Below are positions 1,944-59,235 of a stretch of DNA of 64,000 nt, piece by piece. The position numbers and the translations under genes were made by a program. The stretch is from Zanthoxylum bungeanum (Eukaryota > Streptophyta > Magnoliopsida > Sapindales > Rutaceae): positions 124,001-188,000 of the forward strand of contig SKCR01007819.1 in NCBI GenBank assembly GCA_019454045.1, written 5' to 3'. Under the pieces are notes generated by a model. That model searched no databases and was not told the DNA's origin. It saw only the letters and a program-made list of their open reading frames with translations. Each line of letters opens with the position of its first letter. Positions within the stretch are counted from its first letter, which is position 1.

Positions 1944-1955
1944 TGGTATCAGAGC
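1944..1955 (+). other. Primer-binding site of A1 (initiator Met tRNA type)
   Basis: TGGTATCAGAGC lies 5 nt after the LTR end. This is the standard plant copia primer site, complementary to the 3' end of initiator methionine tRNA, where minus-strand DNA synthesis starts. Confidence 0.93.
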
Positions 1956-2330
1956 GAGTCTGATTCTAGACATCCTAATATGATTATGCCTTTTAAATTC
2001 AATGTTTAATTTAATCTTTACTTTAGGCATGCATGTGTTCATTTAATTTGATTAAATAAAGTAAAAGCAACTTTTGCGAAAAATCCCTAATTAATAAGGT
2101 TTATGTTAATTATTAATTTAACATAAATTCAATGTTAATTATGCCTTTTAAATTCAATGTTTAATTTAGTCTTTACTTTAGGCATGCATGTGTTTATTTA
2201 AGTTGATTAAATAAAGTAAAAGCATCTTTTGCGAAAAATCCCTAATTAATAAGGTTTATGTTAATTATGTATTTGATGCATGTTACATGGTCCGTCTTGT
2301 CAATACGGTTTATGGATATCTTTTCTGTGA

Positions 2331-2656
2331 CTACTTCCGAGAACGTGCCAAAGCTGTGAGGGTGTAGCCGATAGAAATTTATTTACACTGGATGTATATC
2401 AGATACTAGATAAATTCAAGTGAAAGCGGAATCCTGAACGTGCCAAAGCTGTCAGGGTTACGCAAGTAGCTTGAGTTTATCATTGATGAGTTTAACCTTG
2501 GTACGTCTCCTTGTGAACGTGCCAAAGCTGTCACAACGAGAAACGACCAGGACCGGAAACCCATGAGTCACTATTGAGTGATTGACAAAGAGTTGTCTAC
2601 CTGATGAATATACGTAAGCGAGAACGTGCCAAAGCTGTGAGCTGAAATATATTCAT
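2331..2656 (+). repeat. Four constant-loop stem-loops in the A1 leader
   Basis: The core ACGTGCCAAAGCTG occurs four times (near 2343, 2438, 2517 and 2623), each time as the loop of a different inverted repeat. Stems: CTACTTCC/GGGTGTAG (2331-2338/2360-2367); AATCCTGA/TCAGGGTT, extended by GATAAATTCAAG/CTTGAGTTTATC (2409-2420/2470-2481); TTGTGA/TCACAA (2511-2516/2531-2536), extended outward; ATGAATATA/TATATTCAT (2604-2612/2648-2656). The array lies in the untranslated leader between primer site and gag, where retroelements commonly carry packaging and dimerisation signals. That role is inference. Confidence 0.85.
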
Positions 2657-2853
2657 GGGATCCACCTTTCACTATTTGTATTTAATTTAATTATTAAATC
2701 TTTGTATTCTATTTGGGGATTACAGTATTGCAGGATTTAGTGGGATGAGCATTTTTAGATTAAAAATCCATGATCTAGTTAATGTTTTTGCTATTATATG
2801 AAACTGTTTAATTTCTGCTAACCGTTTTTCGTAATCTATATGATAGATTTGCG

Positions 2854-14743: not shown

Positions 14744-15184
14744 GTATTATGGTGTGTATATGATGCATATTAATTTTTGGGTTGATTGGATTTGATCTTG
14801 ACATGTTTTGAACAAAAATGGACCAAATTGCAAAAATTGAAAATTACTGAGCTGTTCGGCAATATTAAAAAAATTTGGAGATTTTTGTTGCAATTTATTT
14901 TTGATGTGTTGGACATGTTGGAAATCATTTGAGAATTGATTTGTAATCATCCAAAATTATATTTGACAATTTGAGGACTAAAATGTACAAAATGCAAAGT
15001 TTATGGGTCAAATGGTACTTTTCAAGAAATATGATTTCTTGAGTTAAATTTCAGTTTTTAAGTATTGGGTATTTAAATAAATAATTTTATTTAATTGATC
15101 CAAGAAAATTTATTGAAATCGGAAAATTTTGATTTTCACGTTCCGCTGCGTTACCGGATATTCCCATAAAACCCCAACAAAAAT

Positions 15185-15196
15185 TGGTATCAAAGC
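15185..15196 (+). other. Primer-binding site of A2, mutated
   Basis: TGGTATCAAAGC, one base different from the canonical TGGTATCAGAGC at 1944 and 22438, lies 5 nt after the LTR end. Confidence 0.88.
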
Positions 15197-15416
15197 CTGG
15201 GTCTGATTCTGAACACTCGATATGATTATGCCTTTAAATTCAATGTTTAATTTAATCTTTACTTTATACATGCATATGTTTATTTAATATGATTAAATAA
15301 AGTAAAAGCATTTTTGTGGATAATTCCTAATTAATAAGGTTGTATGTTAATTATGTATTTGAAACAAGTTAAATGGTCCGTCTTGTCAATACGGTTTATG
15401 TATATCTTTTCTATGA

Positions 15417-15741
15417 CTACATCCGAGAACGTGCCAAAGCTGTGAGGGTGTAGCCGATAGAAATTTATTTATACCGGATGTATATCAGATACTAGATAAA
15501 TTCAAGCGAAAGAGGAATCCTGAACGTGCCAAAGCTGTCAGGGTTACTCAAGTAGCTTGAGTTTATCATTGACGAGTTTAACCTTGGTACTCCTCCTTGT
15601 GAACGTGTCAAAGCTGTCACAACGAGAAACGATCAAGATCGGAAACCTAGGAGTCACTATTGAGTGATTAACAATGAGTTGTATACCTGATGAATATATG
15701 TAGGCAAGAACGTGCCAAAGCTATGAGCTGAAATATATTCA
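15417..15741 (+). repeat. Four constant-loop stem-loops in the A2 leader
   Basis: The layout is the same as in A1. Stems: CTACATCC/GGGTGTAG (15417-15453); GATAAATTCAAG/CTTGAGTTTATC (15495-15506/15556-15567) around AATCCTGA/TCAGGGTT; TTGTGA/TCACAA (15597-15602/15617-15622); TGAATATA/TATATTCA (15691-15698/15734-15741). Loops keep ACGTGYCAAAGCTR. Confidence 0.85.
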
Positions 15742-15937
15742 AGGATCCACCTTTCACTATTTGTATTTAATTTAATTATTAAATCATTGAATTTTGTTTG
15801 GGGATTATAATATTGCATGATTTAGTGGGAGGGAAATTTTTAGATTAACAATCCATGATCTAGTTATTTCTTTCGATATTATTTGAAACTGTTTAATTCT
15901 GCTAACCATTTTTCGTAATCTAAATGATAGATTTGCG

Positions 15938-16115
15938 ATGGCGGCACAATCGACTAATTTGTTTGCGCGTATGTCGGATACGAACAAACTAAAAGGCGTT
16001 GACAACTTTACCGATTGGGATTTGGATTTAAGGATTGTCCTTGAATCCGAAAAGTTGAGATATGTACTTAAGGGTCCGCTGCCCCTTGCTGTGTCTGAAG
16101 ACACAACCCCAGAGG
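15938..16115 (+). pseudogene. gag N-terminus of A2, interrupted by A3
   Basis: This is the best-preserved gag start in the window: the ATG at 15938 opens a clean frame with AAQSTNLFARMSDTNKLKG, DNFTDWDLDLRIVLESEKLR and YVLKGPLPLAVSEDTTPE. It is the N-terminal domain of copia Gag. The frame has no stop up to the junction at 16115/16116, where the LTR of another A element starts; only about 59 codons remain of an expected few hundred. Comparison with A1 (which continues GGAACACC where this copy has GGTGTTAGGG) fixes the break. The spurious tail of the frame beyond the junction is LTR sequence. Confidence 0.88.
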
Positions 16116-17569
16116 TGTTAGGGTTGGTGCTATGAGCGCCAATTTTATTATGTATTTCCTTGTAAATACTAATATAACTTTTTATTTGGAATAAAATAAA
16201 AATTTTGCATTATATAACACCCTCTTTTATATGGTAAAGACGTAACACACCTTCAAATGATTAGTTATGATACTGTTGTAAAAGCGTCGCAGCTGACATT
16301 GAGTTATATCATTACGTTGTCATTCTTAGACAGTTCATGGTCAAGGTTTACACTACTTGGCCAGTAAAGAAAACCCGTTGAGACTGGTACATGTCGTATA
16401 TTGAAATCTTGGACTCCGATGGTTTCTCAATGAACCATGAGTCTCGGAGACTCGTATATACATGTAGGTGTTTATAACAGATAAACATTGAATGACTCAC
16501 CGAAGATTCTTAATGGATGGTACACCAACGTCAATAAGAATCTTCTCGGGTTGAGTGAGCATAGTGATTCTTTGACTTGAGATACCATTGTGGATATATG
16601 AGTTATCATCCACACTTAGATGACAGTCACGTCACCGATCTATTTAGATCTGACCTCCGCCGGTTCTTTGGGTGTGGACTGATGCTCAGGATATCCTGTG
16701 TCTATCAAGAAAGGATCTGTCATTTCTATGTACAAAGCATAGGTATTCAATATGGAATTAGGAATCTGTTAAATCCATGGGCCCGTGGTACGCTGTAGAA
16801 ATTAATTCTAAGTGTTATTAAGGGATTGCTAAGAGAAACATCAACGTGATTATATCTATAGAGATTTTACGTTTATATCTATATCTCTGGAATATTCTGG
16901 ATACATGTGACAGAGAGTTTATGTTGGAGCAGTTGTGGAACCTCTAGGGTCGGATCGGTACCCCGGGTAGCGGAAATGGGTCTAACCCATCGATATCAAG
17001 TATGGGTGTAATTTTAAATCATTTAATGAAATACTATATTCCATTACGAGTGTGTAGGAAAAAATCGGGACTGAATCGGAGTCCAGAAGCTTCAGAACGA
17101 GCGAAAATAAAATTGGCGCGCGCACACGTACGTGGGTGAACAGTGCACACGCGCACTGTTCATTTGAGCTGACTGTGCCATTTTTTTTGTTTTCTTAATG
17201 CTTCAGCTCTCTGGAAAATTTCCAGAGAGCTGAAGCAATTAGGGTCTATTACCCTAATAGCTTTCGGTCTTCTCTAAACACTTCAAAAATACCCAAAATT
17301 AATTTTTAATTTCAAAACTAACATAAACACATGTTATAGAATAAAAATCAAGTTTTTCAAAATATCAAATATTTTTACAAAAATATAAATTTATTCTAAA
17401 TACGCATTTACATAAATTTTGTATCCAATACACAAACCAAATTAGAATCTCAATAAGAAATGTCTCGTGAACAATTCTAGGTCACCCAAAGGTGGTCAAG
17501 TGATTCTAGAATGGTATCCATAGCTCTAAGCTTTAATCTAGAGTTCCAAACTCAAATTAATCATTTCAT
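16074..17569 (+). repeat. Tandem duplication, unit 1
   Basis: The unit contains the end of A2 gag (16074-16115), the start of the A3 5' LTR (16116-16916), duplication site GTTTA (16917-16921) and the first 648 bp of LTR D (16922-17569). It is directly followed by a second copy that begins again at gag. Both junctions share the 4-bp word GTCC. By eye the copies differ at roughly one base in ten plus indels, so the event is not recent. Confidence 0.9.
17200..17236 (+). repeat. 18-bp perfect palindrome in LTR D (unit 1)
   Basis: Arms GCTTCAGCTCTCTGGAAA and TTTCCAGAGAGCTGAAGC flank a single A. It is followed by ATTAGGGT/ACCCTAAT (17238-17258) and preceded by GAACAGTGC/GCACTGTTC near 17138-17162. 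In the second copy (about 18714-18750) one arm has decayed. Confidence 0.85.
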
Positions 17570-21478: not shown

Positions 21479-22437
21479 TATTTTTTGTTTCATTTTTCAA
21501 GATATACAAGTTTTTCAAATATTCACTAAGTTAAAAATTGAGAGAAAAAATGAAGAACAAAAGGAGAAAGGCTTGAAAACTTGGAGTTTTGTAAGTTATT
21601 TCCAACTTTCTTCAACTAAGAAATTATTTCTATGATTCTATTCTTCAATTTGTGTAGTTTAGAATTTTCTCTAATCTTTAATTATGTGAATTATTGGTTG
21701 GAAACTTGTTTGAAAGATGAAATCATGTATGTTAACAAAGTTTGCATGAAATTAGTTCATTACCATTCTTTAAGCCATTTGATGGTGATGTTGCCATTAT
21801 AGAGTTTCTTAGCCACTCATAGATAACCTAGAATTGTTCTTGAGTTGTTTCATGGTGGTGAGACTTGTTTGGTGTGGTAAGGATTGGATTAAAGTATTGA
21901 ATTTGTTTAATTTGGTTTAATTTGTCAATTTGTGAAAATTATAAAATTAAGGTTCATAACCCTTATCAAATTTTGGGCTTTTCATATATGTGATGTAATT
22001 TTATGTATATATGCTGTATATTAAATTTGGGATTGATTGAATTTGATCTTGACATGTTTTAAACTAAAAAGTACCAAATTACAAATCCTGTAAATTACTG
22101 AGGTTGTTCGGCAATTTTAGAAAATTGTGAATTTTTTATTGCAATTTGTATTTTCATGTATTAGACATGTATAAATCATTTTGGGATTGATTTGGAATCA
22201 ATTAAATATGTATTTGACAATTTAAGGACCAAAATGATTAAATTGTAAAGTTTATGGGTAAATTAGAAATTATAGGAAATTTGATTTCTTGGGTTAAAAT
22301 TTCAGATTTTAATTATTGGGTAATTAAATAAATAAGTTTGCTTAATTGATCCAAGAAAAAATTTTAAAATTGGAAAATTCTGATTTTCCGCGTTCCGCTG
22401 CGCTAACCCAGTAATTCCCTATAAAACCCCAACAAAA

Positions 22438-22449
22438 TGGTATCAGAGC
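22438..22449 (+). other. Primer-binding site of A3
   Basis: TGGTATCAGAGC, 3 nt after the LTR end, complementary to initiator Met tRNA. Confidence 0.93.
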
Positions 22450-22662
22450 GAGTATGATTCTGGACACCCGATATTTAAAATTCAATGTTTATTTTAATAT
22501 TTACTTTATGCATGCATGTGTTTATTTAATTTGATTAAATAAAGTAAAAGCATCTTTTGCGGAAAAATCCCTATTTGAAAATAAGGTTTTTATTTAATAT
22601 GTATTTGATGCATATTAATTTTTCCGTCTTGTCAATACCGCTTATCGATAAATTATTGGCGA

Positions 22663-22985
22663 CTATATCCGAGAACGTGCCAAAGCTGTGAGGATATGGC
22701 CGATAGAAATTTATCTGTACCGGATATATTTGATATTAGGTGAATTCAAGCGCAAGCAGAATCCTGAACATGCCAAAGCTGTCAGGATTACGAAAGTATC
22801 TTGAATTTATCATTGACAAGTTTAACCTTGGTACGCCTCCTTGTGAACGTACCAAAGTTATCACAACGATAAACGACCAGGACCGAAAACCCAGGAGTCA
22901 CTTGTGAGTGATCGACAATGAGTTATCTACCTAATGAATATATATAGGCGAGAACATGTCAAAGCTGTGAGCTAAAATATATCCA
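22663..22985 (+). repeat. Four constant-loop stem-loops in the A3 leader
   Basis: Stems: CTATATCC/GGATATGG (22663-22670/22692-22699), where A2 has CTACATCC/GGGTGTAG, so the fourth pair changed from C-G to T-A on both sides; AATCCTGA/TCAGGATT (22760-22767/22782-22789) inside TGAATTCAAG/CTTGAATTTA (22741-22750/22800-22809); TTGTGA/TCACAA (22841-22846/22861-22866); TGAATATA/TATATCCA (22935-22942/22978-22985, one mismatch). Loops are more worn than in A1. Confidence 0.82.
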
Positions 22986-23182
22986 TGGGGTCCACCTTTC
23001 CCTATTATATTATGATTTGATTATCGCATGTTTTGTATTCTGTTTGGGGGTTACAGTTTTGCATGAAATAGTGGAAGGGACATTTTTAGATTAAAAATCC
23101 ATGATCTATTTAATGCTTATGATATAATATGAAACTGTTTATCTGTTAACCGTTGATTTGCTGTCTATTTGATAGATTTACG

Positions 23183-25417
23183 ATGGCGGCACCTTCGACC
23201 AATCCTTTTTCTCGTATACTTGATATGAATAAGCTAAAAGGCGTTGAGAACTTTGCGGATTGGGATATGGATTTGAGGATTGTCCTCGGATCCGAAAAAC
23301 TGGGATACATTCTGGATGGTCTATTATATCTCTGGATTCATTGTCTGAAGAGATTAAGACTTTCCATAAATGGAAAGATGATGATTTAAGAGTTAAATCA
23401 TTCATTCTCAGTTCTCTTTCTTTTGAACTAAAGAGGCAATACTTTGAGATGCACGATGCATATAACATGATGACACAACTTCGTGAATCGTTCATAAACC
23501 AGGAACAGGTCGTGGTTCATAGAGTTGCAATGGAATTGTTCCATTCTAAACTTGATGAGGGGTAGGCTGTGAGCCCGCATGTGCTTCATTTGATTGAGCA
23601 ATTGAGACTCATTGACTTCCCTCTCAATGATACTCCATGATGGAGTGTCATTCTCGGTCCACTCCCTACGTCATATCGCCAGTTCATCATGTACTTCAAC
23701 ATGAATGGGATTCACTGCTCTTACCGTGAGTTGCATAAGATGCTTCTCACAGCGGAGGAATATTTAAAGAAGGGAGTTATGACTCGCCTTCCGAAAACCA
23801 CTTCACTTTCCGCTTCTTCCCAATCCAAGTAGAATGGGAAGATGACTAAAGGAAAGAAGAAGAAAGGTTTCAATGTTCCTATGTAGGCTAAGGTAGCGAA
23901 GCCCGAGAGAGCTTCTGAAGATAAGTGCCATCACTATCAGAAAGTCAGATACTGAAAAAGAAACTGTTCGGGCTACCTCGCACAGATAAGGAGGGAAAGA
24001 GCATCGTCATCAGATACTTTTATTTTTCCTATTATTGATATCTCATTGGCTTGTGAAGCTATGACATCTAATTGGATTTTAGATTCTTCTTGTCCTATTC
24101 ACATTTGCAATATGTTGCAGGTGCTGACGGAAAGTAGACGGCTGAAATCTGGGGAGATGCAGTTGCGATTTGGGAGTGGCGACTCTCTTGATGCGGTTGC
24201 AGTGAGCATATGCGAGATTCCCTTACCCAGTGAGAGACTTTTGTTAAATGAATGCTTTTTTGCGCCAGGATGTGTGGCGAATATTATGTCTCTTTTTGTA
24301 TTAGATACTGAAGGATATAATATAAATATTAAGAATCGTTCTTTGTATTTATATGATAGAAATAATATTCAGATCCTTTGTTGACCAAACGAGCATGATC
24401 ATTACATATTGTGTACCTCACAAGATATCTTTAATACTAGAATTAATAAACGTAAACAATCTGATATAAATAATACTGAACTATGGCATATAAGGTTAGG
24501 TCATATATGCGTGAAACGCCTAACCCGATTGGTTAAGAATGGTTTGATACATGATCTCACCATTGAACTTTATCCAACTTGTGAATCTTGTATTCTGGGC
24601 AAAATGACCAAAGCTCCATTTTCGGGTGTTGGACACCGAGCCACTGACTTATTGAAACTCATACATTCTGATGTATGTGGTCCTATGAGTCAGAATGCAC
24701 ACAGTGGTTTTCATACTTCATCACCTTTATTGATGATGTGTCACGGTACGGTTATATTTATCTGATGAAACATAAATCGAAAACCTTTGAAAGTTCAAAG
24801 AATTCTGAATTGAAGTAGAAAAACAGACTGGTCAATATTATAAATGTCTTAGATTTGATCGATGCGGTGAATAAATGAGTGGAGAGTTCACTAATTATTT
24901 AAAAGAGAATGGGATTCTCACTCAATATACTCCTCCGGGTACTCCGCAGCACAATGAAGTGTCAGAGAGGAGAAATAGAACTTTATTAGATATGGTCTGA
25001 TTGATGTTGAGTTATACAGATTTACCCTATTACTTATGGGGTTATGCTATTTTAACTGTCGCACATCTTTTGAATAAGATTCATTCCAAAGCTGTTCCTA
25101 CGACTTCATATGAGATATGGACCGGTAGGAAACCGAATCTTAGTTATGTTAAGCTTTTTCCTCGAGGGCAGAAGTTTAGGTTTGTTGGATATCCTTCAAA
25201 TACGAAAGGATATTTGTTCTATGATACCAAGCATCAAAATGTGTTCGAAGCTCGCTTCACAAAATTTCTAGAAATATAATTTTTGTCTGAAGGTGGTGAT
25301 CATAGACAGGTTGAACTTGATGAAGTACAACCTGATGCCAATGAACCAACGGAGGAACCTGAAGTTCAAGAAGAATAAGAACCTTCAACACACGCACTCT
25401 GTAGGTTACAAAGGATA
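23183..25417 (+). pseudogene. A3 gag and first half of pol, broken
   Basis: The ATG at 23183 starts a gag frame (NKLKGVENFADWDMDLR). It shifts near 23310 and continues as HKWKDDDLRVKSFILSSL and onward, with stops at 23563 and 23638. The zinc knuckle near 23926-23967 has lost two of its Cys/His ligands (CHHY...RY-stop). Protease (WILDSSCPIHIC, near 24074) and the Gag-pre-integrase LWHIRLGH (24481-24504) are readable. The integrase core (IHSDVCGPMSQ) follows with a frameshift near 24710 and a deletion near 25150. Element C interrupts at 25422/25423, and pol resumes at 43994. This part would encode particle, protease and integrase, but cannot now. Confidence 0.9.
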
Positions 25418-57930: not shown

Positions 57931-59235
57931 TAACGGATGGAAATCCAGACATAAATTCCGTAGCCGAATCTGAAAGGACGGTAGTGCGGTCTGTACTTGT
58001 GATACAACTCCACTTACCGCTTGAGGAACTTTCCTTCACGTGATTCATTTTGGTATTTAATTTCGTGTTTATTGTTCCGCCTTTTATTTTCTATGTATTT
58101 ATTTTCTTGTTTATGCATTATTGCTTGATGCACATGGGCTAATCACGTTGGTTTAAAGGTCCTCTATTTGAGGGAGAAAAAGCCTAAAAGGCTACCTTTA
58201 CCATGATATTTTGCCGCGCCGGATGAGGTATGCTCGATTGAATGTGAAATAAGTTCAATCGGGCATACGAGATCCCATATAGATGTCGGCCTTGGTCGCA
58301 TCTCTTTTATTTAATTATGCATTACTATTTAGTGCGCATAGGCTAATTACGTTGGTTTAAAGGTCATCTATTTGAGGGAGAAAAAGCCTAAAAGGCTACC
58401 TTTACCATAATATTTTGCCGCTCCTTTTAGTCTGTTATTTACTTTTCGCATATTATTTCTTTGTTTGTTCATGCATTATTGCTTGATGCGCATGGGCTAA
58501 TCACGTTGGTTTAAAGGTCATCTATTTGAGGGAGAAAAAGCCTAAAAGGCTACCTTTACCATAATATTTTGTCGCGCCGTTTTAGTCTGTTATTTACTTT
58601 TCGCATATTATTTCTTTATTTGTTCATGCATTATTGCTTGATGCGCATGGGCTAATCACGTTGGTTTAAAGTTCCTCTATTTGAGGGAGAAAAAACCTAA
58701 AAGGCTACCTTTACCACAATACTTTGTCGCGCCTTTTATTATTCCGTTATCTACTTTCCGTATATTATTTCTCTGTTTATTCATGCATTGTAATCTAGTG
58801 CGCATGGGCTAATCAAGTTGGATTAAAGGTCCTCCGTTTGAAGGATAAAAGCCTAAAAGGCTACCTTTACCACGATATTTTACCGCGCTGGATGAGGTAT
58901 GTTCGATTGAATGTGAAATACGTTCAATCGGGCATACGAGATCCCATATAGATGTCGGCCTTGGTCGCATATCTTTTATTTAATTATGCAATGCTATTTA
59001 GTGCGCATGGGCTAATCATGTGAGTTAAAGGCTATCTTTGCCACGGTGTCTTGCAGCGCCCTTCCCCTATTGACTTTTCTATACATCTTTGTTTTGGTTG
59101 TATTATGTTTGAGTGTTTGCTTCTAACGGTATATTGGATGGAAACCCAGACATAAATTCTGTAGCCGAATCCAAATGGACTGTAGTGCGGTCTGTACTTG
59201 GGATACAACTCCACGTACCACTTGAGAAACATTCA
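57931..59235 (+). repeat. Two similar blocks bracketing a tandem array in LTR H
   Basis: The blocks 57931-58030 and 59115-59225 share TAACGGATGGAAATCCAGAC-like text, GTAGCCGAATC and GTGCGGTCTGTACTTG. Between them is the array described next. This looks like expansion by repeated unequal exchange. Confidence 0.8.
58129..59060 (+). repeat. Six-copy tandem array in LTR H
   Basis: Units start with GCGCATGGGCTAATCACGTT at about 58129, 58333, 58486, 58641, 58798 and 59002 (the last is shorter). Each has AGCCTAAAAGGCT, a small hairpin, and CTACCTTTACCA. Two spacer types alternate: a long one (58220-58331, 58890-59001) with a 14-bp inverted repeat TATGCTCGATTGAA/TTCAATCGGGCATA, and a short one (TCGCATATTATTTCTTTG...). 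Confidence 0.88.

Follow-up and report, generated by a model that had tools for sequence, protein, structure and literature searches.

The stretch of Zanthoxylum bungeanum DNA analysed here (64,000 nucleotides, referred to as the window) contains a copia-type element in three copies, A1, A2 and A3. Their tRNA-type primer-binding sites start at positions 1944, 15185 and 22438, respectively, and that of A1, TGGTATCAGAGC, is presumably of the initiator-tRNA-Met type. The start of gag is readable over 60 codons in A2; matching gag starts were found at 2854 in A1, where a stop occurs at codon 4, and at 23183 in A3, and the leaders between primer site and gag measure about 745-910 nt. The assignment to copia is based on the gag_pre-integrase and retroviral-polymerase SH3-like domains found in A1 and on the Gag of an A-type relative (L286), which carries the copia gag domain PF14223 and a CCHC zinc knuckle (zf-CCHC). 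Upstream of gag, 27 AUGs were counted in A1 (1944-2853), 19 in A2 (15185-15937) and 20 in A3 (22438-23182), which makes plain scanning unlikely. In all three copies, an array of four hairpins is located between primer site and gag, as expected of the packaging signal (psi) of a retroelement. The features are as follows:

1944..1955, + strand: primer-binding site of A1, TGGTATCAGAGC
2288..2660, + strand: structured leader domain of A1, made up of closing helices, the four hairpins with the tips and two small ones
2296..2304, + strand: closing helix P1 of A1, 5' strand, pairing with 2482-2490
2321..2377, + strand: hairpin 1 of A1 (core 2341-2357)
2416..2472, + strand: hairpin 2 of A1 (core 2436-2452)
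2482..2490, + strand: closing helix P1 of A1, 3' strand
2495..2551, + strand: hairpin 3 of A1 (core 2515-2531)
2566..2583, + strand: small hairpin of A1 in the interval between hairpins 3 and 4
2584..2597, + strand: second small hairpin of A1 in the same interval
2602..2658, + strand: hairpin 4 of A1 (core 2622-2638)
15407..15744, + strand: four-hairpin array of A2, with 17-nt cores at 15427, 15522, 15601 and 15708
15938..16117, + strand: start of gag in A2 (60 readable codons)
22653..22988, + strand: four-hairpin array of A3, with 17-nt cores at 22673, 22766, 22845 and 22952

Just 3' of its primer site, the A1 leader contains a 155-bp tandem duplication (1.8 copies, 1983-2268), a region that appears as a gap when A2 and A3 are aligned; a separate tandem array with a 155-bp unit (3.6 copies) is found at 58333-58888. 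On the other side of the primer site, the LTR end shows complementarity to the D arm of the initiator tRNA-Met (1890-1955, 15130-15196 and 22390-22449), and for each of A1, A2 and A3, at most 1% of 300 shuffles matched this duplex. Upstream of the primer site, 94 of 98 copies contain the sequence TTCCGCTGCG (up to 2 mismatches), compared to 0 of 98 for the reversed control.

The repeated word and its hairpins in the window

The original prediction described a 14-nt word, ACGTGCCAAAGCTG, recurring four times between primer site and gag in each copy. In A1 this was confirmed, all four occurrences (2343, 2438, 2517 and 2624) being exact, with spacings of 95, 79 and 107; in A2 and A3, the number of four is reached at 1-3 mismatches, exact occurrences being limited to two in A2 (15429 and 15524) and one in A3 (22675). 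These seven exact matches, all on the + strand, compare to 0 expected from 100 shuffles of the window. The remaining five array sites differ from the word by 1-3 mismatches, every one of them a C>T or a G>A change like those of copies in decay. At up to 3 mismatches, the window contains 14 matches, 12 of which form the three sets of four, and the two elsewhere have 3 mismatches and correspond to chance level (1.97 expected); antisense matches at this threshold were absent from the window. The full common word in all three leaders comprises 17 nt, GAACGTGCCAAAGCTGT. Pairing of this core with initiator tRNA was considered and rejected (complementarity p = 0.43).

Comparison of A1-A3 bore out that each word site is closed by its own, different stem at conserved positions, including the two pair changes noted before: C-G in A1 and A2 versus U-A in A3 in stem 1, and U-G in A1 and A2 versus U-A in A3 in stem 2. 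The word itself, taken at first for an open 14-nt loop, turned out to pair within itself and to fold into a bulge, a wobble pair, a short apical stem and a tetraloop; the order in the tips of this family, called A below, is an A-U pair, a bulged nucleotide, C-G, G.U, the short apical stem and the tetraloop. When the flanks were shuffled around a fixed core, 10 of the 12 window hairpins were more stable than their shuffles at p < 0.05 (exceptions: hairpin 1 of A1, p = 0.13, and hairpin 4 of A3, p = 0.15), and 10 of 12 were again more stable with random leader flanks as control. Across A1-A3, pairing is lost in 4 of 138 paired cells, compared to 8.3 expected if the same substitutions are placed randomly (P = 0.0014). 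The outer stems alone gave 2 of 90 versus 5.1 expected (P = 0.0011); the inner stems alone (2 of 48 versus 3.2 expected, P = 0.23) and the two double changes across A1-A3 alone (P = 0.13) were not significant.

A conserved multi-hairpin RNA domain in the leader

The search for further copies covered the assembly from which the window is taken (3.956 Gb, 51,709 contigs). A pattern of two neighbouring words had 3941+3952 = 7,893 matches, and an anchor sequence upstream had 7048+7036 exact matches, with 0 for the respective controls, that of the word pair being the reversed pattern; a query with the gag start of A2 gave 50,199 first-look candidates, 150 of which were scored. Three samples were drawn. 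Sample (i) comprises 80 loci (20 + 60) obtained via the two-word pattern and is thus biased toward the A word; the full chain of four was present in 70 of them and absent from 10. Sample (ii) comprises 50 gag-anchored loci, among them A2 of the window, and 41 of these were chainable; the other nine are L274 and L282 with three words each, the rearranged L280 and L288, and L295, L304, L310, L319 and L321, in which few or no words were found. Sample (iii) comprises 40 loci obtained via the upstream anchor and covers the families having that anchor. Up to the last locus fetched, the anchor list contained 49 places, nine of which were skipped because they were already in the A-word pattern sample, so A is under-represented among the 40. 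Contigs may contain duplicate copies, and L283 and L284 look identical. Rearranged arrays were seen in L280, with six words (partial duplication), and in L288, in which the spacing between hairpins 3 and 4 is 134 instead of the usual ~107.

For 113 aligned copies (70 pattern-derived, 3 from the window and 40 gag-anchored), RNAalifold returned a model of 399 columns with 120 pairs. Several of these pairs occur in two forms, e.g. C-G in 70 and U-A in 36 copies, U-A in 48 and C-G in 48, G-C in 54 and A-U in 51, and U-A in 87 and A-U in 20. The two small hairpins at 2566-2597 of A1 are also conserved, and among 112 copies, one loop-closing pair is U-A in 87 cases and A-U in 20. For 29 rows of the alignment, the energy was -148.5, compared to -91.3 (sd 5.2) in 60 column shuffles (z = -10.9). 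In a crude helix test, the own partner was favoured for hairpins 1 (10 vs 4), 2 (6 vs 4) and 3 (8 vs 6) and not for hairpin 4 (median 4 vs 5), the inner stem of which is short.

Since the copies are related, changes were mapped on a tree. Inherited changes, i.e. those shared by at least 3 copies, kept pairing in 106 of 136 cases (0.78), compared to 0.43-0.69 in 12 controls with slid pairs, and included 10 double changes versus 0-1 in these controls; for changes shared by at least 5 copies, the respective values were 76 of 93 (0.82) versus 0.39-0.68, with 6 doubles versus 0-1. Changes private to one copy kept pairing in 423 of 984 cases (0.43), no better than slid pairs (0.41-0.51), and 2.0% of them were doubles compared to 0.5-2.2%. 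The difference between the two kinds of changes indicates that the stems are kept while the elements are active and decay after insertion. Neutral stem decay, which the original prediction had named as the outcome that would speak against it, was accordingly seen for private changes and not for inherited ones. Paired columns also show fewer inherited changes relative to private ones (142:875) than unpaired columns (149:556; p = 1e-4), and the inner stem of the core is likewise low in inherited changes (26:178, p = 0.0065). Columns of the tetraloop are no more constrained than unpaired ones (12:26, p = 0.15). In bulge columns, inherited changes are more frequent (8:10, p = 0.036). An unrestricted ranking by mutual information contained 3 exact pairs in the top 10 and still 3 in the top 100 (p = 0.034 against slid pairs), and was rejected as proof of structure as the family signal dominates. 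Together, these data show that the leader encodes a conserved multi-hairpin RNA domain of about 400 nt.

Family-specific tips that change together

In sample (iii), all four tips were found at about the usual spacing in 38 of 40 leaders; L358 and L365 are without hairpin 4, and the search took unrelated sequence as their fourth tip. The pairwise identities of the tips summed to 54-90 of 90, whereas no quadruple from 120 shuffled leaders exceeded 51. At a distance of 20-30 nt from the words, the arms showed no relation in sequence (medians 20-26 of 90). Thirteen of the 40 leaders carry A tips, typically with CAAA in all four hairpins. In 22 leaders, one of them mixed, the tips are of a second type, B, typically with CUCU in hairpins 1 and 4, CCUA in hairpin 2 and CUUC or CUUA in hairpin 3. 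Two leaders have C tips (UAUU in 8 of 8 tips) and three have C' tips (UAGU in 11 of 12 tips, hairpin 4 of L330 being UGGU). In the mixed copies L315 and L337, hairpins 1 and 4 both have CUCU and hairpins 2 and 3 both have CCAA. An alignment of C copies folds the tips of hairpins 1-3 into a four-pair stem with a tetraloop of the UAUU/UAGU type, and the tip of hairpin 4 folds otherwise in models made from B or C copies only.

The linkage of the tips was counted over the 81 elements of samples (ii) and (iii). For hairpins 1 and 4, we obtained 45 A-A, 26 B-B, 3 C'-C' and 2 C-C combinations with 5 others, and for hairpins 2 and 3, 47 A-A, 24 B-B, 3 C'-C', 2 CCAA-CCAA and 2 C-C combinations with 3 others. 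Clear hybrids were absent from these 81 elements, the others being ties, decayed copies, and L358 and L365 with their wrongly located tips. As the copies of a family share descent, this linkage is partly plain descent, and the evidence for concerted change lies in the few switches between families and not in the 81 copies; about three or four such switches were seen (from A via the mixed form to B, from A or B to C, and from C to C'). The tips are thus concerted and family-specific, while the layout persists. Of the constant loop proposed originally, matching tips within an element held up, whereas constancy did not extend across families.

The Gag proteins diverge to different degrees. Compared with the Gag of L286, which is of the A type, B-type Gag is 70-77% identical over the colinear stretches of L322, L323 and L324 and less so in the frameshifted L325; other A-type copies mostly reach 76-87%, with L301 and part of L276 lower. 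Gag thus differs only slightly more between A and B than within A. A change of the Gag zinc knuckle matching the switch from A to B was not seen, CCHC being nearly the same in both, and this slightly lowered the chance that we give to a reading of the tips by Gag, from even to just below even. The longest stretches of C-type Gag are 39% (L366) and 27% (L367) identical to the A type, with up to 50% in short stretches. Thus, the layout survived strong divergence of Gag while the word was replaced.

Possible partners of the tips and comparison with known systems

Based on these comparisons, we tentatively propose, at a little under an even chance, that the tips are a repeated, family-specific recognition site on the genomic RNA, most likely binding Gag for packaging. 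The four arms of the leader domain would each present a matching small tip, and the tips would form a repeated site on the own genomic RNA of the element that is read by Gag of that family. Binding of Gag would select or nucleate the genomic RNA for packaging, and when the recognition of a family changes, hairpin 1 would change along with hairpin 4, hairpin 2 along with hairpin 3, or all four at once. Since the partner has to match several arms at once and to differ by family, an element-encoded partner is suggested, and an element-encoded RNA-binding protein fits best; we infer that this partner is Gag and the purpose packaging. The earlier idea of a repeated binding site on variable but paired stems agrees, as to a repeated RNA site, with the thousands of genome matches and the inherited pairing-preserving changes, and the binding of a protein is the part that we infer. 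It is also conceivable, though on the unlikely side, that the tips serve as a tag for self-recognition, with the word or word set on the four arms of each family being read by its own Gag, sibling families diverging by switching paired or all arms, and the own RNA being packaged among thousands of relatives.

The main rival to Gag is a factor of the host that acts in translation or export. Docking of a host protein to the domain could control translation or nuclear export, be it by ribosome shunt, internal entry or an export factor, and the 27, 19 and 20 AUGs before gag in A1, A2 and A3 as well as the pararetrovirus leader described in passages of PMC12786077, which is structured and recruits export factors, are in line with this; however, a fixed host factor poorly explains a joint switch to a new word between families in one host, and we regard this explanation as unlikely. 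We consider it quite improbable that the tips make RNA-RNA contacts, either as kissing genomic RNA dimers or between hairpins 1 and 4 or 2 and 3. The identity of hairpins 1 and 4 in B copies and of hairpins 2 and 3 in L315 and L337 would suit such contacts, and Ty1 has been proposed to dimerise via complementary hairpin tips (PMC5454406), but the A word lacks self-complementarity, its core-core duplex reaching -4.7 compared to -8.8 on average for shuffled ones (p = 0.91). Self-kissing of the tips was rejected on this ground for the A word alone.

Pairing in private changes, which is no better than in slid controls, and the rearranged arrays of L280 and L288 would also agree with a neutral history, in which four duplicated words are kept alike by descent or conversion without an RNA function. 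This history is disfavoured by the pairing kept in inherited changes, by the column-shuffle energy and by the fewer inherited changes in paired columns, and, as the segments flanking the words are unrelated between arms, conversion would need to move a short tip only; we hold it to be very improbable. Least credible to us is that the word acts as a DNA factor-binding site or, as a peptide, via short upstream reading frames. It contains ACGT, with ACGTG resembling a G-box core, and in each A1 word one of the frames translates as ERAKAV, which is seen in two uORFs; yet ACGT is absent from the sampled C-type tips, the spacings in A1 are not multiples of three, and the stems keep pairing in inherited changes.

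A search of Rfam 15 at the gathering score gave 0 matches for the window and for L363, L336, L339, L334 and L286. The exact 17-base pattern had 3 single matches in viral contigs without further words nearby, which were taken as chance, and the two-word pattern was found in 68 stretches of viral contigs and at least 120 prokaryote ones, many of them at multiples of three like coding repeats, as judged from the listings. None of 8 pattern stretches in viral contigs considered with a pol fragment of A1 was a relative, and a 13-nt sub-word occurs in two published papers, in one of them as a primer. Homologues of Gag were found as 8 proteins on short ENA contigs. Among the matches listed for the open-licence PubMed Central literature, no report of an array of repeated tips was found, nor an account of how copia elements in large genomes pick their own RNA among related transcripts. 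The leaders described here offer a natural test, as a single layout is combined with several tip words, thousands of matches in the genome and Gags of measurable divergence. If Gag reads the tips, the words would make up a naturally occurring code for packaging; if it does not, the concerted switching of the hairpins still calls for another partner.

The GACG hairpins of MLV-type gammaretroviruses are located in the leader. In passages of PMC516450, these GACG-tetraloop hairpins are tied to packaging and perhaps to dimerisation, and the domain described here resembles that packaging region in having hairpins that share one tetraloop. In contrast to the MLV type, GACG is not among the typical tips here (CAAA, CUCU, CCUA, CUUC, UAUU and UAGU); the tetraloops CAAA, CUCU, UAUU and UAGU sit on four arms, the tips switch together between sibling families, and binding of Gag is putative. 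Ty1, also of the copia type, likewise has a structured RNA domain at its 5' end, TIPIRT, in which hairpin tips have been linked to dimerisation and to packaging (PMC5454406), but the Ty1 tips are complementary 7-nt motifs, whereas the tips here are alike and complementarity of that type was not found for the A word. BARE is another element of the copia type and has an untranslated leader. Passages of PMC3735527 mention that it has conserved signals for dimerisation and for packaging but describe no array of repeated tips like the one found here. Conserved non-coding motifs in copia elements have also been described for sireviruses (PMC2829016). The leader domain of Z. bungeanum thus belongs to a known kind, the structured leader signals of retroelements, within which its concerted, family-specific tips are unusual.
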